Notes: generated from the sequence alone by a model not told the origin. DNA of 36,075 nt from an uncultured bacterium (GCA_905235605.1 CAJOMF010000016.1:1-36075), one strand, 5' to 3'; positions 1 to 33,274 are shown, counted from the stretch's first letter. Numbers and translations are program-made.

Positions 1-26
1 GAATTCGGAAAAACGGGAGAAACGGC

Positions 27-155
27 ATGACAGCTCATGCTGCGATAAAAAACACCTTTTTTGAGGATTTTTTTGTCCAGAAATGCTTGACCATTATAGA
101 TCATTGCGGTTGCGATTGTGACGATTATTGTGAGCATTGTTCTTGTGATGATTAA
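27..155 (+). CDS. Putative RiPP precursor peptide A (42 aa, Cys/Asp-rich tail)
   Basis: This short frame runs from ATG at 27 to TAA at 153-155 and encodes 42 residues. A GGGAGA Shine-Dalgarno at 15-20 sits six bases before the ATG. The N-terminal half is ordinary and partly hydrophobic (MTAHAAIKNTFFEDFFVQK). The C-terminal half is dominated by Cys and Asp, ending HCGCDCDDYCEHCSCDD, with seven Cys in the last 17 residues. It ends 15 bases before the first radical SAM gene, so it is most likely a leader-core precursor for that enzyme. The leader does not resemble that of the five related peptides downstream, although the CGCD module does. No database family is recognised. Alternatives are a metal-binding peptide or a chance frame; the SD, composition and position argue against chance. 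Confidence 0.7.
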   Translation: MTAHAAIKNTFFEDFFVQKCLTIIDHCGCDCDDYCEHCSCDD

Positions 156-170
156 TTAAGGGGCTAAAAA

Positions 171-1451
171 ATGAAATACAGAAATATTGGGAATGATATT
201 TTTTTGTTGGAGTCACATTGTAAAAATACAAACATAGTTTATGCGCCTTTAAAGAAGAAAATGTTTTATACGAAGGATGTTTCGGTCGATGAATTGGAAA
301 AATCATTCAACAATCTTGATGACAAAACGGAATTGGGTAAGAGAATCAAAGATTTTGTTGCTTCTCCTAATGCAAAAATATCAAAACACCCCGGATTCGG
401 TGTAAGAAAGGATCATGCTGTATTCTTGTTGACTGAAGCCTGTAATCTTGCCTGTGTTTATTGCTATGCATCAGAACAGCATTCGACTGATACTTTAACA
501 AAAGAAAAACTAAAAAATACAATTGATTTCGTTTTGAATAGTGATTCTAAGAGAAAACATTTTTCCTTTATTGGTGGTGGTGAACCTTGTGTAAAATGGG
601 ATTTGTTGGTTTGGGCAGTTGAATATATAAGAGAAAAACAAGGAAATACAAAAGTAAGCATAGGGGTAACAAGTAACACGACTTTATTGAATGAAGAACG
701 GGTAAAATGGCTTGCGAAAAACAGAGTTCATGTTGGTTGTTCTTTTGATATATTGCCGGAAATTCAGGATGCTCAGCGTCCTTATGCATCAGGCAAAGGA
801 AGTTTCGCCGATGTGAAAAAATCAATAGGTTTGTTGGCAAAAAATAAAGTCGGGTTTGGTTTTAGAAGCACAATTACGCATTTGGCCGTAGAAAAAATGC
901 CTGAAATGGTTGAATATGTTGCAGAAAATTATCCTCAAATAAAACAAATTCATTTCGAGCATGTTTCGGCTCATGGTTTGACTTGGGATAATTATTACAA
1001 AGATTTCATGACATATTTCTTTAAGGCAAAGAAAGTCGCTGCGGCAAAAAATATTTATTTAAAAAATTCGACTATAACTTCTGTTAAGACTCTCAGAAAT
1101 CGTTTTTGCGGTGGAGAATTTTGTGTTACATCAACAGGAGATATTGTTTCGTGTCACAGAGTTTCCAATGATAAGGCGGCTGCTTTTGAAAGATTTAAAT
1201 ACGGTGTAGTAAATGAAGAAGGCGTTTTTGTAGATGAAGATAGAGCAAAGGCGGTCAATGCTCTATATGAGAAAAAAAGACTTGAACAGTGTGAGTCTTG
1301 TTTCGCAAAATATCATTGTGCAAGTCAGTGCAACAATAACAAACTGACATACTCAGAAGAAGATTTTTCGGAATTGTGCAATTTTACAAAAGAAATGATT
1401 CTCAGAGAATTAGAAGACAAATCCAATCTTGAGGAAAATAATGACTTTTAG
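171..1451 (+). CDS. Radical SAM/SPASM peptide maturase 1
   Basis: The protein has 426 residues. The radical SAM cluster-binding motif is Cys91-x3-Cys95-x2-Cys98, inside EACNLACVYCYA. A GGGEP segment at 135-139 is typical of SAM contact in this family. The C-terminal SPASM region carries Cys313, 318, 328, 374, 377, 383, 387 and 403, including a CxxCx5CxxxC run, enough for two auxiliary iron-sulfur clusters. About 85 residues precede the radical SAM core and could hold a peptide-recognition region, but no RRE fold can be asserted by eye. Enzymes of this type install thioether or carbon-carbon crosslinks in ribosomal peptides. Precursor-like genes lie immediately before (27-155) and after (from 1464). 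The start is supported by an AAGGGG motif about ten bases upstream. The exact reaction is unknown. Confidence 0.9.
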   Translation: MKYRNIGNDIFLLESHCKNTNIVYAPLKKKMFYTKDVSVDELEKSFNNLDDKTELGKRIKDFVASPNAKISKHPGFGVRKDHAVFLLTEACNLACVYCYASEQHSTDTLTKEKLKNTIDFVLNSDSKRKHFSFIGGGEPCVKWDLLVWAVEYIREKQGNTKVSIGVTSNTTLLNEERVKWLAKNRVHVGCSFDILPEIQDAQRPYASGKGSFADVKKSIGLLAKNKVGFGFRSTITHLAVEKMPEMVEYVAENYPQIKQIHFEHVSAHGLTWDNYYKDFMTYFFKAKKVAAAKNIYLKNSTITSVKTLRNRFCGGEFCVTSTGDIVSCHRVSNDKAAAFERFKYGVVNEEGVFVDEDRAKAVNALYEKKRLEQCESCFAKYHCASQCNNNKLTYSEEDFSELCNFTKEMILRELEDKSNLEENNDF

Positions 1452-1463
1452 AGGAGAAAGACA

Positions 1464-1619
1464 ATGACAATTTCAGAAATTATTGAGTTGGAAACAACGA
1501 GTGTAACTCATTTAGAATGTGGAGAATGTCCGGATTGCCCATGTGAACCGGATGATTGTCCGTGTGAGTACGCCGACTGTCCAGACTGGCACAAAGATGT
1601 GTGTGGACGAGATAGGTGA
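1464..1619 (+). CDS. Putative RiPP precursor peptide B (51 aa, eight Cys)
   Basis: ATG at 1464 follows a GAGGAGAAAG Shine-Dalgarno, only 12 bases after the stop of maturase 1. The leader MTISEIIELETTSVTHLE has no Cys. The core then begins CGECPDCPCEPDDCPCEY and ends in GRDR, with eight Cys (19, 22, 25, 27, 32, 34, 39, 47) separated by Pro, Asp and Glu. The sharp boundary between a Cys-free leader and a Cys-rich core is the hallmark of a crosslinked RiPP precursor. The first 27 bases are almost identical to the starts of the genes at 1655, 2142 and 2405. The product is probably a substrate of one or both flanking radical SAM enzymes. The chemical product is unknown. Confidence 0.75.
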   Translation: MTISEIIELETTSVTHLECGECPDCPCEPDDCPCEYADCPDWHKDVCGRDR

Positions 1620-1654
1620 TAAGTTCTGTATCTATGAATTTTTAAAGAGTGAAC

Positions 1655-1915
1655 ATGATTGTTTCAGAAATTATTGAGTTGAAAATTATAAATTTAACTA
1701 GCAATTTAGCATGCGGTTGTGATGAATCTTGTTGGACTGAATTCAACTGTGATTCAGAGTGTGAGTGTGACGATCCTGATGAACCCTGTTGGACTGAATG
1801 CAACTGTGATTTAGAGTGCGAGTGCGATGATCCTGATGAACCTTGTTGGTGCGATGATCCAAAGTGTTGTGATGATTTTAGGTGCTACAATGGACAATAT
1901 AACACCAATCGTTGA
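1655..1915 (+). CDS. Putative RiPP precursor peptide C (86 aa, duplicated core)
   Basis: ATG at 1655 is preferred because MIVSEIIEL then aligns exactly with the MTISEIIEL leaders of its neighbours; an in-frame GTG at 1649 would only add two residues. The upstream AAAGAG is a weaker ribosome site than those of its siblings. The leader runs to about residue 19. The core contains two tandem 19-residue units, CWTEFNCDSECECDDPDEP and CWTECNCDLECECDDPDEP, followed by a partial third beginning CWCDDPKCC. The core has 17 Cys and many Asp/Glu. The repetition suggests that one crosslinked module is made several times, or that unequal crossing-over expanded the core. The likely maturases are the two radical SAM proteins of this locus. 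Confidence 0.75.
   Translation: MIVSEIIELKIINLTSNLACGCDESCWTEFNCDSECECDDPDEPCWTECNCDLECECDDPDEPCWCDDPKCCDDFRCYNGQYNTNR
1730..1843 (+). repeat. Two tandem 57-bp core units in precursor C
   Basis: Bases 1730-1786 and 1787-1843 are adjacent in-frame direct repeats of 57 bases, differing at only a few positions. Each encodes a 19-residue Cys/Asp module that begins Cys-Trp-Thr-Glu and ends Asp-Pro-Asp-Glu-Pro. A further CW start follows at 1844 but diverges after four residues. Confidence 0.85.
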
Positions 1916-1989
1916 GTCTGAGATGGGAGCAGAGAAGACGATTGAGAGGAGATTTTTAATTCTTTTAACTGAATTCAAGGAGGTAAGAG

Positions 1990-2124
1990 ATGACAATTTC
2001 GGAAGTTATTGAGATGGATACTGTTTTCAAAAATGAAGCATCACTTTATCATGGATCTGTTTGTCCTGAAGAGGATGTAGATCCCAATGACGAATGTGGT
2101 CCTAATTGGGAGTGTACGGATTAA
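1990..2124 (+). CDS. Putative RiPP precursor peptide D (44 aa, three Cys)
   Basis: A perfect AAGGAGG ribosome site at 1977-1983 lies six bases before ATG 1990. The leader MTISEVIEMDTV is a variant of the family leader. The core is poorer in Cys than its siblings (Cys25, 36, 42) but rich in Asp, Glu, Pro and Asn, with the segment DVDPNDECGPNWECTD. The DPNDEC motif recurs in the peptide at 2405. The shared leader, strong ribosome site and position make it a member of the same precursor family. It may receive fewer crosslinks or be a diverged paralogue. Confidence 0.7.
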   Translation: MTISEVIEMDTVFKNEASLYHGSVCPEEDVDPNDECGPNWECTD

Positions 2125-2141
2125 TTTAGGAGGAATGAACA

Positions 2142-2384
2142 ATGACAATTTCAGAAATTATTGAGTTGGGAACAGTAGATGTAACCAACAATTCGGCGTG
2201 TTGGTTCGAAGGGTGCGGTTGTGACGAGGCATGTGGTTGTGATGATCCGGAGAAAGATAATGATCCGCCTACAGAAAATCCTTTAGATAGTGTATGTAAT
2301 GATGACCCTGATGACTGTGGTTGTGACAATGATGATACGAATTGCGGCTGTGAAGATGATTGTGGCTGTGATGATGGTAATTAA
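2142..2384 (+). CDS. Putative RiPP precursor peptide E (80 aa, five Cys-Gly-Cys motifs)
   Basis: ATG at 2142 follows a TAGGAGG ribosome site. The leader MTISEIIELGTVDVTNNSA is followed by a core with 12 Cys (20, 25, 27, 31, 33, 52, 59, 61, 68, 70, 74, 76). Five Cys-Gly-Cys motifs occur, mostly followed by Asp, in two blocks separated by an acidic spacer containing PPTENPLDS. That spacer resembles the end of the peptide at 2405 (APTESPLS). Cys-Asp-dense cores are known from ranthipeptides, where a radical SAM/SPASM enzyme links Cys sulfur to an acidic residue; that reaction is inferred here. A metallothionein-like metal-binding role is the main alternative. Confidence 0.75.
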   Translation: MTISEIIELGTVDVTNNSACWFEGCGCDEACGCDDPEKDNDPPTENPLDSVCNDDPDDCGCDNDDTNCGCEDDCGCDDGN

Positions 2385-2404
2385 ATTTTTAAGGGAGAAA
2401 AGTG

Positions 2405-2548
2405 ATGACGATTTCAGAAATTATTGAGTTGGAAACAACAGAATTTGACAGCAATGTTTTTGTAAGCAGTTGCGAAAATTGTTCGGATAATGATCCAGAT
2501 CCGAATGACGAGTGTTATGATGCACCAACAGAATCACCTTTGAGCTGA
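2405..2548 (+). CDS. Putative RiPP precursor peptide F (47 aa, three Cys)
   Basis: ATG at 2405 follows AAGGGAGAAAAGTG, a usable ribosome site. The leader MTISEIIELETTEFDSNVF is nearly identical to that of peptide B. The core has Cys23, Cys26 and Cys37 in a very acidic context, including NDPDPNDECYDAPTESPLS. It shares DPNDEC with the peptide at 1990 and PTExPL with the peptide at 2142, so it looks like a mosaic of sibling modules. No function is assigned beyond candidate substrate of the local maturases. Confidence 0.7.
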   Translation: MTISEIIELETTEFDSNVFVSSCENCSDNDPDPNDECYDAPTESPLS

Positions 2549-2589
2549 TTTGAAGAAATTTTAGTAGATTTTTAGTAATGGAGAGAAAG

Positions 2590-2739
2590 ATGACTAATGT
2601 AAATTATGATGTTGATTTGTTAAACTCTATTGTAGCAAATGAGTCCACAACTTCACAAGTATTGGAACTGGAACTTAAAGCATGTGATTGCACAAGCTGT
2701 TCTGGTTGCTCTGGCTATAGATCAGGAAAGGATATCTAA
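2590..2739 (+). CDS. Putative RiPP precursor peptide G (49 aa, CxCxxCxxC core)
   Basis: ATG at 2590 follows GGAGAG at 2580-2585. The first 31 residues (from MTNVNYDVDLLNSIVANEST) contain no Cys. Then four Cys come in nine residues, CDCTSCSGC, followed by SGYRSGKDI. The leader differs from the MTISEIIEL family and the core is Ser/Gly-rich rather than Asp-rich. It is the last small gene before maturase 2, so it may be that enzyme's dedicated substrate, as the peptide at 27 may be for maturase 1. That pairing is an inference from gene order only. Confidence 0.65.
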   Translation: MTNVNYDVDLLNSIVANESTTSQVLELELKACDCTSCSGCSGYRSGKDI

Positions 2740-2817
2740 AATTTAAATCGTAAAATTTCTAAGTCTGCGATTGAATCATTCATTGTTGAATAATTTCAAT
2801 ATCTTAGGAAAATGATT

Positions 2818-3945
2818 ATGTCGGAAGATCACAAAAACCGAAAAAGAACTTGTATGCTGATTATCACACATTCTTGTAATTTGAATTGTGTATATTGCTA
2901 CGAAAAATATAAGGATGAGCGATCCATGTCTTTTGAACTGGCGAAAGAAATAATCAGAAAAGAGTTCGAGTTTGTAAAAAAATCATCTGATTACGATGAG
3001 ATAGAATTCGAATTATTCGGAGGAGAACCTTTTGTAAAATTCGAGTTGATGAAACAAATAATGGAATGGACTTGGTCGCAGAAATGGGAGATTCCATATT
3101 ATTTTTTTGCTACTACAAACGGAACTTTGATTACAGAAGAGGTTAAACAATGGCTTGTGAAACATAGTGAAGCTTTTGTAGCAGGAATAAGTTACGACGG
3201 TGCAAATGATTCTCAAGATTCAAACAGAAGCAATAGTGCGACTAAAGTTGATTTGGACTTCTTTCTCAAAACATATCCGCGACAAAAGATAAAAATGACA
3301 ATTTCTCCGGAATCGGTAAAAAATTTAGCTGCTGATGTTCTGTATTTAACAGAAAAAGGTGCGAGAATTTCGGCAAATTGTGGTTCAGGTCAGGTGTGGT
3401 CAGAGGAAAATAAAAATGAATTTCGTAAGCAGTTGATGATTTTGGCAGATTATTATTTGAAAAATCCTGAAATTGAACCAGTTTCTATTTTTGAAAGAAA
3501 ATTTCGTAATGTTGTGGCAAAGTTGGAAGCTAAATGGAAGTGGTGCGGAAGCGGCACGATGATGACTGCTTATGATGTCGATGGAAAAAATTATCCTTGT
3601 CAACTTTTTACCCCGCTTGTTTTGGGTGACGATAATGCCGCAGATTTACACAAAAAAATGGATTTCTCTGACAGAAAAATTAATGGTGATCCAATTTGTG
3701 TGGAATGCTCACTTTTTAATATCTGTCCTACTTGTCTTGGTTTCAATTACCGAGACACAGGCAACATTGCGACACGTGGAAAGACAATGTGTGAACTTTT
3801 CAGAATCCAGACATCGGTGCTTGCTTACTACACGCAGGAACTTCTGCGCAAAAAGAAAGAAGCAGGCATTCCGTTTGATAACGAAGACCGGCTTGACGCA
3901 AAAGGGCTTTTATTTTTGAAAGATAATCCGTCGAAAGAAAAATAA
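2818..3945 (+). CDS. Radical SAM/SPASM peptide maturase 2
   Basis: The gene encodes 375 residues from ATG 2818. An in-frame ATG at 2812 is possible, but the upstream AGGA is better spaced for 2818. The radical SAM motif is Cys20-x3-Cys24-x2-Cys27 within HSCNLNCVYCY. GGEPF at 68-72 and TTNGT near residue 100 are typical of the family. The SPASM region has Cys243, 261, 294, 297, 303, 306 and 325, the usual auxiliary cluster pattern. The Cys motif begins only 20 residues from the start, so this enzyme lacks the N-terminal extension of maturase 1 and has no room for a fused recognition domain. It follows seven candidate precursor genes. It may act on different peptides, or make a second modification on the same ones. 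Confidence 0.88.
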   Translation: MSEDHKNRKRTCMLIITHSCNLNCVYCYEKYKDERSMSFELAKEIIRKEFEFVKKSSDYDEIEFELFGGEPFVKFELMKQIMEWTWSQKWEIPYYFFATTNGTLITEEVKQWLVKHSEAFVAGISYDGANDSQDSNRSNSATKVDLDFFLKTYPRQKIKMTISPESVKNLAADVLYLTEKGARISANCGSGQVWSEENKNEFRKQLMILADYYLKNPEIEPVSIFERKFRNVVAKLEAKWKWCGSGTMMTAYDVDGKNYPCQLFTPLVLGDDNAADLHKKMDFSDRKINGDPICVECSLFNICPTCLGFNYRDTGNIATRGKTMCELFRIQTSVLAYYTQELLRKKKEAGIPFDNEDRLDAKGLLFLKDNPSKEK

Positions 3946-4018
3946 AAAGCAGAGTGGTCGCCAAAAAATCCCAAATACTTCAAAAAATTATTGATTCTCT
4001 CTTTCAAAAAGTTATAGG

Positions 4019-4037
4019 AAAAAAGTCGGCCTTTTTT
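4019..4037 (+). terminator. Weak A/T-rich hairpin after maturase 2
   Basis: AAAAAAG and CTTTTTT form a 7-bp stem around TCGGC, with the T run inside the 3' arm. It lies 74 bases past the maturase 2 stop, in a 215-base gap with no gene. It could end the RiPP operon, but the stem has only one G-C pair. Confidence 0.3.
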
Positions 4038-4160
4038 GGGTGGGGTATTTGGAGTTTCTGTTTTTTTAGAAAATAAGATATAAATAGCAGGTTTTAGGGT
4101 TTAAAGTTAACGAATTATTATGGTTTATAGATGCGATTATGCGGTAAAACGGAGGTCGGT

Positions 4161-4859
4161 ATGAAAAAAATTATGGTCGTTTTTGTTCTGACGGCACTTG
4201 TGTGCTGTGCTGTCGTTGTCAAAAAACATGTGGATGATCTGCGCGAAAGCGAAGCTCGGTGCAGATATGAACGAGAGGCAGAGCTGGCGGACGATGCCGC
4301 ATTTAAGCAGGCTGCAAGCACATTTAAAATTGCAGAGTTGGAAAAATATCTGAAGGATTTTCCGGCCGGCAAGCATGTCGTGGATGCTACGGAGATGATC
4401 CGGGAGCTTAAGGATGAGGAGGCAAAGGAACTTGTTTGGTCGGAACGCTTTTCCAAAGCCGGGACTTGGGCCGCGGCCGTGAGTTACTGCGGTAATCTGA
4501 ATGAGGGCGGCCACAACGACTGGAGACTTCCAACTATCGATGAGCTTAGGACTCTTATCAAAAATTGTTCCAAGACGGAAAGAGGCGGAAGCTGCAAAGT
4601 CAGTGAAAAAAACGCTTGTCTTGCTGACAACTGTTTTTCTCAGGATTGTTATTGCGGTGAAAACGAAGAGAACGGGCATTACAGCAAGTTAGGCGACGGA
4701 GATGGTGTCTGGCTTTGGTCTTCGTCAAGCAATTCCGATGATCCTGAAAGATTCTGGTATGTAAGTTTTGCCCGTGGGATGGTTGGCTCTTTAGTAAAAG
4801 AAGGTTACGAGGGCGACGATGATTCTGTCCGCTGTGTCAGAATCCATAAAAAATATTAA
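4161..4859 (+). CDS. Membrane-anchored DUF1566 (Lcl_C) domain protein
   Basis: The protein has 232 residues from ATG 4161, chosen because GGAGG lies just upstream and the protein then opens with Lys-Lys and a hydrophobic segment (MVVFVLTALVCCAVVV) that is a signal anchor or signal peptide. Residues of about 30-85 are charged and helical, with a segment YLKDFPAGKHVVDATEM like those linking TPR-type repeats. The C-terminal half matches DUF1566/Lcl_C: WAAAVSYCGNLNEGG, NDWRLPTIDELRTLI, a WLWSSS element and a final RCVR. Six or more Cys suggest disulfides outside the cytoplasm. The role of the family is unknown; it is related in fold to C-type-lectin/FGE domains. The next gene follows after ten bases and may be co-transcribed. 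Confidence 0.75.
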   Translation: MKKIMVVFVLTALVCCAVVVKKHVDDLRESEARCRYEREAELADDAAFKQAASTFKIAELEKYLKDFPAGKHVVDATEMIRELKDEEAKELVWSERFSKAGTWAAAVSYCGNLNEGGHNDWRLPTIDELRTLIKNCSKTERGGSCKVSEKNACLADNCFSQDCYCGENEENGHYSKLGDGDGVWLWSSSSNSDDPERFWYVSFARGMVGSLVKEGYEGDDDSVRCVRIHKKY

Positions 4860-4869
4860 GGAGACAGCA

Positions 4870-5520
4870 ATGTTGTTGAGAGATCAGAAGAATAATGTCA
4901 TTTACTACGAGTCCTCTGAAAAACTAGAGGCTCCATGGATCAATAAAAAATCAACAAGGCATACCTTTGTCGATGGTAAAGGCGAGGTAGAACTGAAAAA
5001 ATCGGTGACGAAAATCGGATATCTTGCCTTCGCCAGCCAAGGCGATATGACTTCGCTGATTATACCAGACTGCATAACGGAAATAGAATATAGTGCCTTT
5101 AGCGACTGTTGCGGTATGAAAAAACTGGTAATCGGTAATTCAGTAAAAAAAATCGGATCGGGAGCATTCGAGTTCTGTTTGTCCCTGGAAGATCTTACAA
5201 TCGGCACTTCTGTGGAGATAATTGAAGATAATGCCTTTTTTGACTGTATGAGTCTGAAATCGTTGGTTATTCCGTCCTCTGTAAACGAAATAGGCTGGCG
5301 CGCATTCGCGGACTGCGGATCTCTTGAGTCTGTAATTATCCCTGATTCAGTAAAGAAAATCGGAGAATATGCTTTTGAAGGTTGTAATTCTCTACAATCG
5401 CTTGTCATGCCTGATTATGTGGAGGAGATAGGCGTCGGAGTGTTTGACGGTTGCGATAAACTTCCAGAGGAAACAAAGGTGATGATTCGTGAGATGGAAG
5501 AGCGGAATTTAAGGTCATGA
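4870..5520 (+). CDS. BspA-like leucine-rich repeat (LRR_5) protein
   Basis: The protein has 216 residues. ATG 4870 is preferred over an upstream in-frame ATG at 4819, since AAGGAGA at 4858-4864 is correctly spaced and 4819 lies inside the previous gene. From about residue 45 to 200 there are six to seven repeats of about 23 residues with the form 'SVxxIGxxAFxxCxSLxxLxIP', typical of LRR_5 (BspA/TpLRR). These form a curved solenoid used in protein binding. There is no signal peptide, membrane segment or anchor, so it is predicted to be cytoplasmic or released by another route. Its partner is unknown. It follows the DUF1566 gene closely and probably shares a transcript. Confidence 0.8.
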   Translation: MLLRDQKNNVIYYESSEKLEAPWINKKSTRHTFVDGKGEVELKKSVTKIGYLAFASQGDMTSLIIPDCITEIEYSAFSDCCGMKKLVIGNSVKKIGSGAFEFCLSLEDLTIGTSVEIIEDNAFFDCMSLKSLVIPSSVNEIGWRAFADCGSLESVIIPDSVKKIGEYAFEGCNSLQSLVMPDYVEEIGVGVFDGCDKLPEETKVMIREMEERNLRS

Positions 5521-5521
5521 T

Positions 5522-5675
5522 ATGAAAAAGTTTTTGTTTAGTTCGTAAAGGCGCAGCAATCGCACTTGCATTCACGGGTTTCACCGGATTCGTTGCGGTC
5601 GTCAACTTTCTGCAAAATCACAAAATTTACAGCTTTAAACGGCGGATAACTCACACAAAATCAGCCGGAACTTAA
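5522..5675 (+). pseudogene. Possible frame-shifted remnant of a small membrane protein
   Basis: ATG at 5522 opens MKKFLFSS and stops at 5546-5548. In a neighbouring frame the DNA continues without a stop to TAA at 5673-5675 and reads KGAAIALAFTGFTGFVAVVN, then FLQNHKIYSF and a basic tail, a plausible transmembrane segment with no start codon of its own. A start fused to a hydrophobic segment by one frameshift suggests a decayed short membrane protein. The evidence is composition only. Confidence 0.3.
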
Positions 5676-5698
5676 AACAGAGACAGTTTTGTGCTACA

Positions 5699-5745
5699 AA
5701 ATTTGGGATAATCCGCAGTCGCATTTAATATTATCCCATAAATTT
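5699..5745. repeat. Inverted repeat resembling the ISL3 ends in this window
   Basis: AAATTTGGGATAAT (5699-5712) and ATTATCCCATAAATTT (5730-5745) form an imperfect inverted repeat around a 17-base loop. The TGGGATAAT arm also occurs in both ends of the insertion sequence at 18648-20180. It could be a hairpin after the LRR gene, an operator, or a relic of a related element. Confidence 0.5.
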
Positions 5746-10655: not shown

Positions 10656-11563
10656 AGCTTTATTTTGAAAAAATCGTTAATAATTTCAATAACTTTTTTT
10701 ATATCATTGTCGAGGTCGAAAATTGATTTCCTGAACTCGGCGCTTCCGTGGAATCCCGAAGAATACCACGAAGCGTGCCGTCTGATCATCGTGTGGGCGG
10801 TTTTCGTGTCGAGGTCGAGATAGTATCTGAAATGCTTTGCCATCATATTCTTTTTTTCTTCGTCGCTCACCGTTTCCCCTTTGAGTTCGCGGAAGATCCA
10901 CGGCTTTCCGAGTGCGCCGCGCCCGACCATGACTCCGGCGATCTTTGTTCCACTGAACCGGTTCAGGTCGCTCTTCTCTCTGATGTCGCCTGAATGAAAT
11001 ACAGGGATCGGAAGTTTTTCGGCAAGTTTGATCGAAACATCGAAATCGCATGTCCCGACTGTGAACATATCGGTCCTGAGACGCGGATGGATGGTGAGAA
11101 AGTCGGCTCCGTTATCGACTGCTTCGGCTGCGCAGCGTTCGTAATTCGGAGTTTTAAACCCTTTTCTTATCTTGACTGAAAGCGGAAGATCGGTGACTTT
11201 TCTCAGAGTTTTCACGATCTTTCCGAGCCTTTCGGGATCATCCATGAGAGCCGAACCGGCGCGTGCCGCAACTACTTTTCTAACCGGACACCCTGCGTTT
11301 ATGTCGATCCCGGCAGGTTTTACCAGTTCAAGAATTTTTTCGGCAGCCTCTTTCATGACCTCGGGATCACCGCCGAAAAACTGCAGAAAAGTCTTAAGTT
11401 CCGATTCATCGATTTCTGAAAGAGAGATCGTTTTTCTGTTGCGCAGAGTGACTGCTTTTGCAGAGATCATCTCGCTGAAACAGCCGTCCGCACAGCCTTC
11501 GTAGCACAAAAGTCTGAATTCCTTCGAAGTTATTTCCGCGAGAGGGGCAAGATATATTTCCAA
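10652..11563 (-). CDS. dus: tRNA-dihydrouridine synthase (Dus family)
   Basis: This flavoenzyme reduces specific uridines in tRNA to dihydrouridine with FMN and NAD(P)H. The preferred start is TTG at 11563, giving 303 residues that open MEIYLAPLAEITSKEFR, the normal Dus N-terminus, with AAGGCGGTG just upstream. An ATG at 11656 would add 31 residues that look non-coding and would run into the promoter region of the divergent kinase gene. The catalytic Cys is Cys92 in INAGCPVRKV. The FMN-phosphate region is VMVGRGALGKPWIF. The Dus subfamily (A, B or C) cannot be fixed by eye. The gene is immediately upstream of, and overlaps, the AAA+/Fis-domain gene, recalling the dusB-fis operon of enteric bacteria. 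Confidence 0.92.
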   Translation of the reverse strand: MEIYLAPLAEITSKEFRLLCYEGCADGCFSEMISAKAVTLRNRKTISLSEIDESELKTFLQFFGGDPEVMKEAAEKILELVKPAGIDINAGCPVRKVVAARAGSALMDDPERLGKIVKTLRKVTDLPLSVKIRKGFKTPNYERCAAEAVDNGADFLTIHPRLRTDMFTVGTCDFDVSIKLAEKLPIPVFHSGDIREKSDLNRFSGTKIAGVMVGRGALGKPWIFRELKGETVSDEEKKNMMAKHFRYYLDLDTKTAHTMIRRHASWYSSGFHGSAEFRKSIFDLDNDIKKVIEIINDFFKIKL

Positions 11564-18767: not shown

Positions 18768-20042
18768 ATGAGTTATAGCCAAAAGCAAAAAGAGAGTCAA
18801 GAAAGAGCCGTTCCCGTTGATTATTTGTATATTCCGTCAGGTCTTCAAGGGTTTCACAACGAAAGAACCATAATAAAAACAAGTGAAAACGGAGAATTGA
18901 CTTATTGTTTTTACGGATATGTTGATGTTTCCGATTCAGACCGGGTCTGTAAATGCGGCGGAACAATGCATATCCATGATCAATATGTAACAAGGCTGAA
19001 TCATTCGAATTTTGGCACAACTCCTACAGAGATAGTTCTGACAGTTCAGCGTTTTTTCTGTCCTAAATGCAGAAACACGCATATTCAGCACATAGCGTTC
19101 AAGGCAGCAACCCACTGGATTACCGTCCAGCTTCTGAGAGTTGTATGCGGTCTGCTTTCTTCGGGGACATATACACTCAGACAGATTTCCCGGATCACGG
19201 GTTTAGGCAAAAATGTCGTCAAGGCGATAGACAAGGAACGGCTGCTCGGGCTTCACACGACAGACAACGGAACAAGGCTCAAGAAACCGGAAAGACAGGC
19301 GAAATACCTTGCAATAGACGAGTTCAAGCTGCACAGAGGACATCAGTACGCCACACATATAATCGACCTCGAAACAGGGTATATCCTCTGGATTCAGAAA
19401 GGCAAAGGAAAGGATGTCGTCCACAATTTCATTGACCATGTCGGACTGAACTGGATGAAAGAGGTCGAGGCTGTAAGCTGTGATATGAACGCCGGTTTTC
19501 ACGCCGCGTTTCTGAAAAGATGTCCGCACCTTCGGATCGTGTTTGACTACTTCCATGTCATCAAGAATTTCAACGAGAAAGTTGTAAACGAAGTGCGAAA
19601 GGACGAGATGGAACGCCTTTACAAAGAGGGAAACACCGAAGCCGCCTCGAAGCTCAAACACAGCAGATATATTCTGGTTTCGAGCCGCGAAACACTTCAG
19701 AAAAAGGATGAAAAAGCCGAAAAAGAACAGGCTGTTAAGCAGAAAGAATTCCTTTTTAAGAAGAAAAAAAAGAAACTCAAAGGCGGCAACGAGGAAAAGT
19801 ACAACGCCCTTATAAAAGAAAATCAACTACTGCTCACAATCGACCTCATCAAGGAAAAACTGAAACTCGCCTACAAGCTGACTGATGAAACGGAAATGGA
19901 GGCTGAAATCACTGAAATCATTGATCTTTGCGAATCGGTTAAAAACAGACACTTTGACTGGTTTGCAAAGTTTTTAACCTCCCATTTCAAAGGCATCACA
20001 GCACACGCCGTTTACAACATCTCAAACGGCAAAATGGAGTGA
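18768..20042 (+). CDS. ISL3-family transposase, frame ended early by TGA
   Basis: The frame encodes 424 residues, with GGAG upstream of ATG 18768. The N-terminus has a zinc-finger-like set of Cys (CKCGG and CPKC) and the middle an HTH. The DDE catalytic domain shows YLAIDEFKLHRGHQYAT, VSCDMNAGFHAAF and FDYFHVIKNFNEKV. It ends SNGKME, where the ISL3 family normally continues 'SNGxxEGxNNKIKxxKRRAYG'. The TGA at 20040-20042 is followed in the same frame by 31 codons, INQKIKTLRRHAYGYND and onward to TGA 20136-20138. The expected C-terminus is therefore present but cut off just after the presumed catalytic Glu. This is either a nonsense mutation or stop-codon readthrough. Confidence 0.88.
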   Translation: MSYSQKQKESQERAVPVDYLYIPSGLQGFHNERTIIKTSENGELTYCFYGYVDVSDSDRVCKCGGTMHIHDQYVTRLNHSNFGTTPTEIVLTVQRFFCPKCRNTHIQHIAFKAATHWITVQLLRVVCGLLSSGTYTLRQISRITGLGKNVVKAIDKERLLGLHTTDNGTRLKKPERQAKYLAIDEFKLHRGHQYATHIIDLETGYILWIQKGKGKDVVHNFIDHVGLNWMKEVEAVSCDMNAGFHAAFLKRCPHLRIVFDYFHVIKNFNEKVVNEVRKDEMERLYKEGNTEAASKLKHSRYILVSSRETLQKKDEKAEKEQAVKQKEFLFKKKKKKLKGGNEEKYNALIKENQLLLTIDLIKEKLKLAYKLTDETEMEAEITEIIDLCESVKNRHFDWFAKFLTSHFKGITAHAVYNISNGKME

Positions 20043-20314: not shown

Positions 20315-21448
20315 ATGCTTTCGAAATTTACTGTAAAAAATTTCAAGAATTTTGAGAAATCTTTTTGCATTGATTTCTCGCAGACAAAATCTTATGAGTT
20401 TTCAAAGGATTGTGTCAAGAACGGGATCGTAAAAACGGGACTTATTTATGGTCCGAACAGCATCGGCAAGTCGAATTTGGGTAAGGCAATCTTTGATATT
20501 GTTGGAACACTGACCGATAATCAAAAAGTTTTGGCATTTTACAAAACCTATCAAAATGCGTTTAAACCGAATGAACCTGCGGAATTCTGTTATGAATTTT
20601 GTTTTGGGGATTCCAAACTGGTTTATAGCTATAAAAAAGCAGTTTATGTATATATTTTGAATGAGGAATTATCCATAGATGGCAAAATAGTTCTTTCACG
20701 TCAAGGGGACACTTTTGACACTTCGCTCGAAGGGCTTGAAACCTTGAACCGCACTATTAATCCTATGATATCGGCTTTACGCTATATTCGGAAAAATGGG
20801 ATACTTTCAAATAATCCTCAAAATGCTGTAGTTCAGCAATTCTTTGATTTCGTAGATCGTATGCTGATGGTTCAAAATTTGAAAGAAAATTTATATCAAG
20901 GTTACTTTGTGGGAGAAAAACGAGTTGACGTAGAAATTTTACAGCAGAACAAATTGCTTGAACTTGAGGCTTTTTTAAATTCAGTTGAAGTTAGATGCAA
21001 ACTCATTTCATTAGAGGTTAACGGAGAAAAGAGAATATGTTTTGATTTTAACGGAAACGTTATTGATTTTTGGGCCAATGCTTCTACCGGAACAAAATCG
21101 TTAGTTCATTTTTACTTTTGGTATCTTGAAGCATTAAAGAGTGATGCGACAGCTCCATCTTTTATGTATCTTGATGAATTCGATGCGTTTTATCATGAAA
21201 AAACATCTGAAACTGTAGTAAAAATGCTTCGCAAACTGGATTGTCAGGTCATTTTGACAACACATGACACTACTTTATTGTCAAACGACTGCATACGCCC
21301 TGATTGTGCATTTAACATGACCGAAGAATATCGGAATACCGAAGAAGACAAAACATATGTTCTTGGTCCCTTGTCTTCTGTTGTAAAAAAAGATTTGCGT
21401 GAAGCGCATAATATTCCAAAAATGTTCAGGGCTAAGGCGTTCGGCTAA
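20315..21448 (+). CDS. AAA ATPase of a two-gene defence-like module (AAA15/RloA-like)
   Basis: The protein has 377 residues, with AGGAGG before ATG 20315. It is an SMC/ABC-type ATPase. The N-terminus MLSKFTVKNFKNFEK is typical of the AAA15/OLD group. Walker A is GPNSIGKS (46-53). A signature-like NASTGTKSLVHFYF, a Walker B MYLDEFDAFYH and an H-loop VILTTHDTTLL follow. The next gene starts on the last base of its stop codon (TAATG) and carries acidic motifs like a TOPRIM nuclease. ATPase-TOPRIM pairs of this layout include AbiL (RloA/RloB) and PARIS (AriA/AriB), where the ATPase senses phage and releases the toxic partner. This role is inferred. The A+T-rich codons differ from the housekeeping genes and suggest transfer. 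Confidence 0.8.
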   Translation: MLSKFTVKNFKNFEKSFCIDFSQTKSYEFSKDCVKNGIVKTGLIYGPNSIGKSNLGKAIFDIVGTLTDNQKVLAFYKTYQNAFKPNEPAEFCYEFCFGDSKLVYSYKKAVYVYILNEELSIDGKIVLSRQGDTFDTSLEGLETLNRTINPMISALRYIRKNGILSNNPQNAVVQQFFDFVDRMLMVQNLKENLYQGYFVGEKRVDVEILQQNKLLELEAFLNSVEVRCKLISLEVNGEKRICFDFNGNVIDFWANASTGTKSLVHFYFWYLEALKSDATAPSFMYLDEFDAFYHEKTSETVVKMLRKLDCQVILTTHDTTLLSNDCIRPDCAFNMTEEYRNTEEDKTYVLGPLSSVVKKDLREAHNIPKMFRAKAFG

Positions 21449-22221
21449 TGAATAGCAGCAAGATATTATTTATTATGGAAGGCAAAAAAGACGACCCGAA
21501 ATTGTTGAGGAGTCTTCTTGACGCATACAAAATTGTTTTGGACTATGGCAGTGATTCAAGCAATGTCATAGTTTCTTACACGAGTAGTATTTATTCCCTT
21601 TATAATGAATTGAAAAAACTAGATAATGGTAAAGACGAATTGGCGGATTTGTTTCCTATTGTGCAAAAGAAAGACAAATCTCTTGATTGTTATTCTCGTG
21701 ACGAATTTTCGGCAATATATCTCTTTTTTGATTTGGATATTCACAAACGGGATGAAAAAAAAGCCAGCATGCAATTGGGGAAAATGGTCGAAACTTTTAA
21801 CAATGAAACTGAAAACGGAAAATTATTCATAAGTTATCCTATGGTCGAAACAGCAAAAATATGCGATAAAAAAGAAGGATTATTTAAGGAAGACAGAAAA
21901 ATCTTTCCTCTGGAAAATTGCGAGAAAGGCGGCTTTAAACAATTTGCACACAATCACACAAGGTCTGCGGTAAAAACAGATTCTTTGAATGACTGGAATG
22001 TCATATGCAAGGAAAATTACCGTAAAGCAAACTGGATTCTGACTGGTTGTTGCTCCATTCCGGACATACCTTATTTGAAGAAAATGGAACAGGAAGACAT
22101 TTTGGACAAAGAACTTGAATTTGTAAAGAATAGCAACAGTGTCGCCACATTGAGTGCTTACCCGATGTGGCTAAAAGACCAATTGGACACTGAAACAATT
22201 GAAGAACTTTTTTATAAGTAA
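21448..22221 (+). CDS. TOPRIM/RloB-like partner of the AAA ATPase
   Basis: The protein has 257 residues, overlapping the ATPase gene by one base. The N-terminus KILFIMEGKKDDPKLL has the Glu expected of a TOPRIM-like start. AIYLFFDLDIHKRDE gives a DxD pair, and FISYPMVETAKICD resembles the 'P-x-x-E' element of RloB-type proteins. These are the acidic residues that would bind metal for nucleic-acid cleavage. The rest is not recognised. The coupled ATPase gene and the neighbouring IS element fit a mobile anti-phage abortive-infection module. Assignment to a named family needs profile comparison; an uncharacterised nuclease is the safest description. Confidence 0.65.
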   Translation: MNSSKILFIMEGKKDDPKLLRSLLDAYKIVLDYGSDSSNVIVSYTSSIYSLYNELKKLDNGKDELADLFPIVQKKDKSLDCYSRDEFSAIYLFFDLDIHKRDEKKASMQLGKMVETFNNETENGKLFISYPMVETAKICDKKEGLFKEDRKIFPLENCEKGGFKQFAHNHTRSAVKTDSLNDWNVICKENYRKANWILTGCCSIPDIPYLKKMEQEDILDKELEFVKNSNSVATLSAYPMWLKDQLDTETIEELFYK

Positions 22222-31866: not shown

Positions 31867-31939
31867 AAAATCGATTTGTTTATTTGCATTTTCCCTTGAT
31901 TTTATTATCTTTTCCATGTTTTTTAGTAAGGAGATCGTT

Positions 31940-33274
31940 ATGGACTATGTTTTTGAGCGGAAAATCTACGGGCAGATTCTTCAATGGAAGCAGGAAAATA
32001 ATGGCAAAAGTGCATTGCTCGTAGAGGGTGCAAGGCGAATAGGAAAATCCACTATTGTGGAGAGGTTCGCCAAGCGTGAGTACAAATCGTACATCCTGAT
32101 TGATTTCAACAAAGCCTCCGAGCGTGTGCTGCACTTATTCGATGATTTGATGGATCTGGACTATATTTTTCTATTCCTGCAAAGCATCTATCATACAACT
32201 TTGTATCAGCGTGAGTCGCTTATAATCTTTGATGAGGTGCAGAAATGTCCTATGGCCCGTCAAGCCGTTAAATATCTGGTGCAGGACGGCAGATATGACT
32301 ATATAGAAACAGGTTCTCTCATCAGTATTAAACAAAGCACGCAGGACATTACTATCCCAAGTGAGGAAGACAGAATAGAGATGTTCCCGATGGATTATGA
32401 AGAATTCCGCTGGGCTATGAATGACACCGCTACTATTCCGCTGTTACGCAAGCAGTTGGAAAAAGGTCAGTCTGTCGGGGAAGATCTCAACAGGCAGTAT
32501 ATGCGCGACCTGAGGCTGTATATGCTTGTCGGCGGTATGCCGCAGGCAGTAAGCGAGTACCTGAACACAAAGAACCTGCGGTCTGTGGATATGGTCAAGC
32601 GCAAGATATTGAAACTCTATTTCGACGATTTCCGCAAGATAGACAAAAACGGCAAGATCGGCAGATTGTATCAAGCCATCCCTACGATGCTTTCGCGAGG
32701 TGTCGGGCGTTTTTATCCGACTGCCGTCATTAAGGGAACTGGTGCGGACAAAATGGAGGATTTACTCATTGCTTTGGAGGACAGCAGGACAGTGAACATC
32801 GCCTGCCATACGACAGATCCCAATGTAGGCTTGCTGTTAAACGAGGACAGGAACCGTATGAAAATGTACATAGGCGATACCGGGCTGATGGTAACACTCG
32901 CTTTCTGGGATAAGAGTTTCACAGAAAATGTGCTGTACGATAAGCTGCTTGCCGACCGGTTGCCTGCCAATATGGGATATATTTATGAGAACCTTGCGGC
33001 ACAGATGTTGCGGAGCAGCGGGAATAACCTGTATTTCTATACTTGGGCAAAGGATGAACGGCATAATTATGAGGTGGATTTCCTTTTGTCGCGCGGTGCA
33101 AAGATATGTCCGATAGAGGTCAAGTCTGCAAGTTACAAGTCGCATGTTTCTCTTGATGCTTTCTGCGAGAAGTTCTCCTTACGAATAGATAAAAGATATG
33201 TAGTTTGCACAAAAGATTTACGGCACGATGGTGAAACGACCATTTTACCGGTTTATATGTTAGGGCTGATATGA
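31940..33274 (+). CDS. AAA ATPase with DUF4143 domain (AAA_14 family)
   Basis: The protein has 444 residues from ATG 31940, with AAGGAG upstream. Walker A is GARRIGKST (30-38), followed by a Walker B SLIIFDEVQKCP. The middle contains LYMLVGGMPQAVSEYL, standard for AAA_14/DUF4143 proteins. The C-terminal DUF4143 part ends NYEVDFLLSRGAKICPIEVK, a PD-(D/E)xK-like set of Asp and Glu-x-Lys. Proteins of this family are common in accessory DNA; their biological role is mostly unknown, and a nuclease or DNA-interacting function is inferred from the fold. It stands alone next to a Fic gene on the opposite strand. Confidence 0.88.
   Translation: MDYVFERKIYGQILQWKQENNGKSALLVEGARRIGKSTIVERFAKREYKSYILIDFNKASERVLHLFDDLMDLDYIFLFLQSIYHTTLYQRESLIIFDEVQKCPMARQAVKYLVQDGRYDYIETGSLISIKQSTQDITIPSEEDRIEMFPMDYEEFRWAMNDTATIPLLRKQLEKGQSVGEDLNRQYMRDLRLYMLVGGMPQAVSEYLNTKNLRSVDMVKRKILKLYFDDFRKIDKNGKIGRLYQAIPTMLSRGVGRFYPTAVIKGTGADKMEDLLIALEDSRTVNIACHTTDPNVGLLLNEDRNRMKMYIGDTGLMVTLAFWDKSFTENVLYDKLLADRLPANMGYIYENLAAQMLRSSGNNLYFYTWAKDERHNYEVDFLLSRGAKICPIEVKSASYKSHVSLDAFCEKFSLRIDKRYVVCTKDLRHDGETTILPVYMLGLI

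Follow-up and report, generated by a model that had tools for sequence, protein, structure and literature searches.

Genes at the contig edge

The window, that is the whole stretch of DNA analysed here (36,075 nt), is an entire contig, and the gene run at 27-3945 therefore starts at the contig edge. This run lies on the plus strand and contains, besides a pair of complete radical SAM/SPASM genes, seven short open reading frames (ORFs) that have ribosome sites and are mostly Cys-dense; the intergenic gaps are 12-74 bp. The gene arrangement is confirmed to be real: both maturase genes, reported as complete in a preliminary description of this DNA, are intact ORFs with the CX3CX2C motif and the SPASM cysteines and match the Pfam Radical_SAM model above its cut-off. 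Counting the plus-strand ORFs at 1452-2811 that span 40 aa or more, have a good ribosome site, and encode three or more Cys gave five, compared with 0-2 in 300 dinucleotide-preserving shuffles. The genes fall into two modules, where module A consists of maturase 1 with five or six precursors and module B of one precursor with maturase 2. Since no terminator-like site was found on the plus strand in 1-5700, the two modules may share one transcript. No RNA family reached the gathering score in the whole window.

The five paralogous peptides of module A have in common the leader MTISEIIEL, which is shared also at the DNA level as a 53-nt repeat family (D1). They are precursor 1 (1464..1619; 51 aa, 8 Cys, AGGAG ribosome site), precursor 2 (1655..1915; 86 aa, 16 Cys), precursor 3 (1990..2124; 44 aa, 3 Cys, AGGAGG), precursor 4 (2142..2384; 80 aa, 12 Cys, AGGAGG), and precursor 5 (2405..2548; 47 aa, 3 Cys, GGGAG), all on the plus strand and matching the precursor profile with E values of 6e-15, 1e-22, 3e-15, 3.6e-24, and 2.8e-13, respectively. 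The core of precursor 2 contains an internal 57-bp tandem duplication and belongs to repeat family D6. Throughout this set the leader is kept and the core varies, and such a combination of conserved leader and variable core is typical of RiPP precursors. Cys accounts for 22% of the core residues, Asp for 24%, and Glu for 9%, acidic residues thus making up one third. The Cys-dense core noted earlier for all seven peptides applies to most of them, but the ORFs at 1990 and 2405 hold only three Cys each and the one at 2590 four.

A probable sixth precursor is the ORF at 27..155 (plus strand; 42 aa, 7 Cys, GGGAG site) with the Cys/Asp core CGCDCDDYCEHCSCDD, whose DNA resembles the core of precursor 4 (repeat families D3 and D14). 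It is counted only as probable because its N-terminus is unrelated to the MTISEIIEL leader, the module A precursor profile did not recover it, and its frame is open upstream to the contig edge, beyond which the true start may lie.

Maturase 1 (171..1451, plus strand; 426 aa; PF04055, 2e-16) belongs to the radical SAM/SPASM peptide maturases and is extended at its N-terminus. CteB is its best PDB match by sequence (2e-24) and also the top Foldseek match of its AlphaFold model (E 7e-17, TM 0.63, alignment over the whole length; mean pLDDT 76.8, residues 1-48 unreliable). The N-terminal 80 residues may form a putative leader-binding RRE; a Pfam search of this PqqD-like candidate region returned no match.

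Module B begins with a precursor at 2590..2739 (plus strand; 49 aa, 4 Cys, profile E 8.5e-17), whose leader MTNVNYDVDLLNS is absent from any profile and is common to precursors in two related genomes, G013 and G014. It is followed by maturase 2 (2812..3945, plus strand; 377 aa), a CXXX-repeat/PapB-like radical SAM/SPASM enzyme.

Separate occurrence of the two modules

Maturase 1 is present in 2 of 28 genomes of the same phylum, and its single ortholog (67% identity) was found in G003, a red deer metagenome-assembled genome of the same genus, where one precursor, MIISDLISLEEASASKNSNFCNVDWCDCMCDD.., lies directly upstream. Strong matches to the module A precursor profile among the 28 genomes are restricted to G000 and G003, both with maturase 1 adjacent, so the co-occurrence extends over two genomes only. 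The module B profile recovered the seven genomes that have the maturase 2 clade, the precursor being adjacent in each, and one further marginal match in G020 (E 0.008, with three internal stops). Both profiles were built from the sequences that they recover, and it is the absence of matches elsewhere that is informative. The preliminary description had taken the short genes for RiPP-like precursors of radical SAM/SPASM maturases, and the conservation and co-occurrence of peptides and maturases in other genomes, the kind of support it called for, bear this out.

In G003 module A stands on a contig without module B, and G013 and G014 carry module B and no maturase 1. As related genomes have either module alone, the two modules are separate and independent.

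Module A appears to be rare also on a wider scale. About 85,000 species were scanned with two short peptide patterns, which returned the ortholog of maturase 1 in G003 only, and a profile search of 386 genomes added a distant same-domain relative (G133) with no Cys-rich neighbour seen. The nearest annotated relatives are encoded on plasmids of Salmonella (NZ_CP022016) and Edwardsiella (NZ_CP116679), with 35% identity over 341 alignment columns. The possibility that maturase 1 came from a virus, phage, or plasmid was considered and rejected, there being no close relative in viral contigs or phages and at most 35% identity in plasmids.

The orthologs of maturase 2 in G013 and G014 (73%) are accompanied by one and three precursors, respectively, with the leader MSNVNYDVELLNSVVSS or a close form of it, and four more genomes have cousins at 42%, in every case with a CxxxC-repeat peptide downstream. 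In the module B precursor set 34 pairs of Cys four residues apart were counted against 8.4 expected, and one G014 precursor passes the TIGR04114 repeat cut-off (21.9 vs 20 bits). This pattern of Cys at every fourth residue is clear in the relatives but largely lost in the window precursor (CDCTSCSGCSGY). Since the relatives carry CxxxC-repeat cores, one of them reaching the TIGR04114 cut-off, module B is, judged by sequence, a divergent CXXX-repeat system, whose copy in the window has a reduced and irregular Cys core.

Family placement and probable chemistry

Both modules have the general makeup of radical SAM RiPP systems, in which short precursor genes adjoin the gene of a maturase that bears the CX3CX2C and SPASM motifs, and in both A and B precursor and maturase are co-conserved, the leader is kept, and the core is variable. 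The best NCBIfam models of both maturases include those of PapB and of nif11-type and SCIFF enzymes and, with maturase 2, TIGR04115, all far under their curated cut-offs; QhpD-type models are also among the best profiles. The best profile of maturase 1 is PapB (NF047865) with 138.7 bits and a cut-off of 340, and maturase 2 scores 134.5 bits with PapB and 133.6 with TIGR04115, where 350 is required; its orthologs reach 141.7 and 150.9 bits with the latter model and are under the cut-off as well. With SCIFF (TIGR03974, cut-off 425) the two enzymes score 96.8 and 86.8 bits, respectively. On these scores membership in the PapB, SCIFF, and TIGR04115 families was rejected. The earlier statement that the locus matches no nameable family stands for module A, which by its sequences fits none, and falls for module B as a divergent CXXX-repeat system. 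Literature searches brought up no account of modules of this kind, with several Cys/Asp precursors.

Several known systems come closest. Ranthipeptides are marked by a thioether between a Cys sulfur and a non-alpha carbon, and among them the PapA/PapB system (freyrasin) shares with the present modules a radical SAM/SPASM maturase and a core rich in Cys and Asp/Glu, and PapB is the best-scoring named profile for both maturases; unlike it, the modules score far under the cut-off, and module A has several precursors per enzyme and no excess of Cys-X3-[Asp/Glu] (18 acidic residues at +4 vs 17.4 expected), which is the freyrasin-like spacing. CteB is the SCIFF maturase forming thioethers, and besides coming nearest among solved structures in both sequence and fold it belongs to a similar small precursor and maturase module; however, the precursors of module A are multiple, Asp-rich, and unrelated to SCIFF. 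The CXXX-repeat systems (TIGR04114, TIGR04115, TIGR04117, TIGR04119) resemble module B, with TIGR04115 near the top for maturase 2 and CxxxC-repeat precursors in the related genomes, but differ in the low score of maturase 2 and in the irregular core of the window precursor. The plasmid clusters of Salmonella and Edwardsiella have the 35% maturase 1 relative beside a precursor-like ORF of 57-59 aa, although their core is CCRGGG..GGxW-like instead of Cys/Asp and they encode their own ABC exporter and S8 protease. Since these relatives sit in precursor/exporter/protease clusters, they support a probable peptide-maturase role for the wider maturase 1 group, with unrelated precursor cores.

As a separate observation, these plasmid loci (L033 4991-10389 and L034 4998-10398) represent an unnamed radical SAM peptide cluster made up of a ~245-aa unknown protein, maturase, precursor-like ORF, ABC exporter, and S8 protease, where the precursor-like ORF ends in a CCRGG.. 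Gly-rich tail and Trp.

Acceptor spacing was evaluated in the module A cores with the Cys kept in place and the tandem duplication reduced by one copy. Asp/Glu were in excess at +2 (p 0.012) and at +3 (p 0.005) from Cys, with a family-wise p of 0.02, which is suggestive only, being weak once the duplication is collapsed. PapB makes side-chain thioethers and accepts Cys-Xn-Asp substrates with n from 0 to 6 (PMC9413430), and because of this tolerance spacing alone cannot decide the chemistry. The cores of module A offer few aromatic, Thr, or Gly acceptors. CteB and QhpD make side-chain thioethers too. Because the top-scoring characterized relatives share this chemistry and the cores provide few other acceptors, formation of Cys-to-Asp/Glu side-chain thioethers by maturase 1 appears the likeliest.

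In the explanation that we favour overall, with a probability of about 0.6, the locus holds two adjacent minimal radical SAM RiPP modules, each of which would crosslink its own Cys-rich peptides via thioethers, with host-encoded processing and accessory products. The common leader MTISEIIEL.. would bring the five or six module A precursors to maturase 1, which, by radical chemistry with SAM and a pair of auxiliary Fe-S clusters, would link the sulfur of Cys with side-chain carbons of Asp/Glu residues in its vicinity, so that one enzyme would give rise to a set of crosslinked Cys/Asp-rich peptides. Maturase 2 would perform the same kind of chemistry on the CXXX-repeat-type precursor of module B, leader removal and export would be left to host proteins encoded elsewhere, and the products would serve as accessory factors against competitors or for signalling. 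Against this explanation count the scores of both maturases below the family cut-offs, the two of five module A precursors with just three Cys, and the RRE that has no Pfam match and falls partly in the low-confidence residues 1-48 of the model. A more specific proposal, put forward tentatively and with odds somewhat below even, is that module A would be a new ranthipeptide-like class, where one maturase converts five or six Cys/Asp-rich precursors to densely crosslinked acidic peptides with non-freyrasin Cys-to-acid spacing and no dedicated export.

With genes and pairing the same, maturase 1 might instead introduce alpha-carbon thioethers as in sactipeptides, C-C cyclophane links, or epimerization. 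The profile list does contain SPASM maturases of several kinds, and Foldseek also matched anaerobic sulfatase maturases, ChlB, SuiB, SkfB, and EpeE; however, it is established that the top named relatives, of the PapB, SCIFF/CteB, and QhpD type, make side-chain thioethers, and cores built of Cys and Asp/Glu with scarce aromatic, Thr, or Gly residues offer little to such reactions, so this alternative is considered unlikely, though the strongest of the competing ones. Decidedly improbable is that the peptides bind or store metal inside the cell and are merely stabilized or modified by the maturases: Cys and Asp often serve as ligands, CxC pairs show some enrichment (17 vs 10.8 expected, p 0.02), and an exporter or protease is not encoded, but adjacent CC is avoided, the loci read had no recognizable metal transporter or sensor next to the modules, and crosslinking would use up the ligands. 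Finally, the preliminary view, in which two maturases of one pathway would act together on seven precursors, has almost nothing to recommend it apart from the tight, terminator-free gene order on one strand, for the two leaders are unrelated and the occurrence of either module alone led to the rejection of a single seven-peptide, two-enzyme pathway.

Genomic setting and probable role

No transporter or protease gene was found in either module in any relative read, as had been remarked for the locus itself. Furthermore, none of the 28 phylum genomes gave a Peptidase_C39 match, compared with 8 of 14 control genomes. As the modules encode no transporter or protease, either the host would supply other proteins for leader removal and export or the products would act inside the cell.

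Module A of G003 and module B of G013 occupy the same stretch between a Radical_SAM_N2/DUF2344 radical SAM gene and rnfA, with toxin-antitoxin-type genes around the modules and copies of the rnfA 3' end repeated between cassettes. This setting points to exchangeable accessory genes and would fit a role of the peptides in competition or signalling, proposed here as the most likely one, although the setting by itself does not define their function.

The source of both modules is a gut bacterium, and the module A family is rare. In maturase 1 one enzyme would act on several natural substrates, which have the leader in common and differ widely in their cores of 3 to 16 Cys. Such a set is suited to testing how radical SAM maturases select the positions of Cys and acidic residues, and the enzyme might become a tool for crosslinking peptides. 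The presence of such a rare module in a lineage with no detected C39 peptide exporter also raises the question of how, or whether, the peptides leave the cell.

Several additional observations concern the surroundings. In G003 and G013 the copies of the rnfA 3' end, together with the following non-coding element, lie between the ToxN, maturase, and PIN cassettes (L024 6389-7660 and 10160-10250, with the rnfA 3' end itself at 10993-11069; L025 4945-5145 and 6006-6129), which looks like a cassette exchange site; no recombinase was seen at these cassettes. A degenerate copy of this repeat is located in the window at 5560-5643, on the right side of its block. Another shared element, of ~80-100 bp and immediately preceding the start codon, is common to module A of G003, module B of G014, and a lipoprotein-like gene of the window's genome with 75-84% identity (L024 9617-9842, L026 11082-11477, L111 6647-7108). 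Behind the G003 maturase 1 (L024 6604-8111) there are a 142-aa protein with no family and a ToxN/AbiQ-type toxin (Pfam ToxN, 8e-50). In the window module B is followed at 4131-5520 by a gene of the Lcl_C/FISUMP type and one of the BspA LRR type, as is the case in G014 and not in G013; the neighbours upstream of module B differ between the window and G014. Farther along the window an ISL3 transposase is encoded at 18768-20042, and PADLOC-DB matches to candidate defence families were obtained at 20315-22221 (PDC-M12A/B, 4e-126 and 4e-55) and 31916-33274 (PDC-S01, 9e-96).
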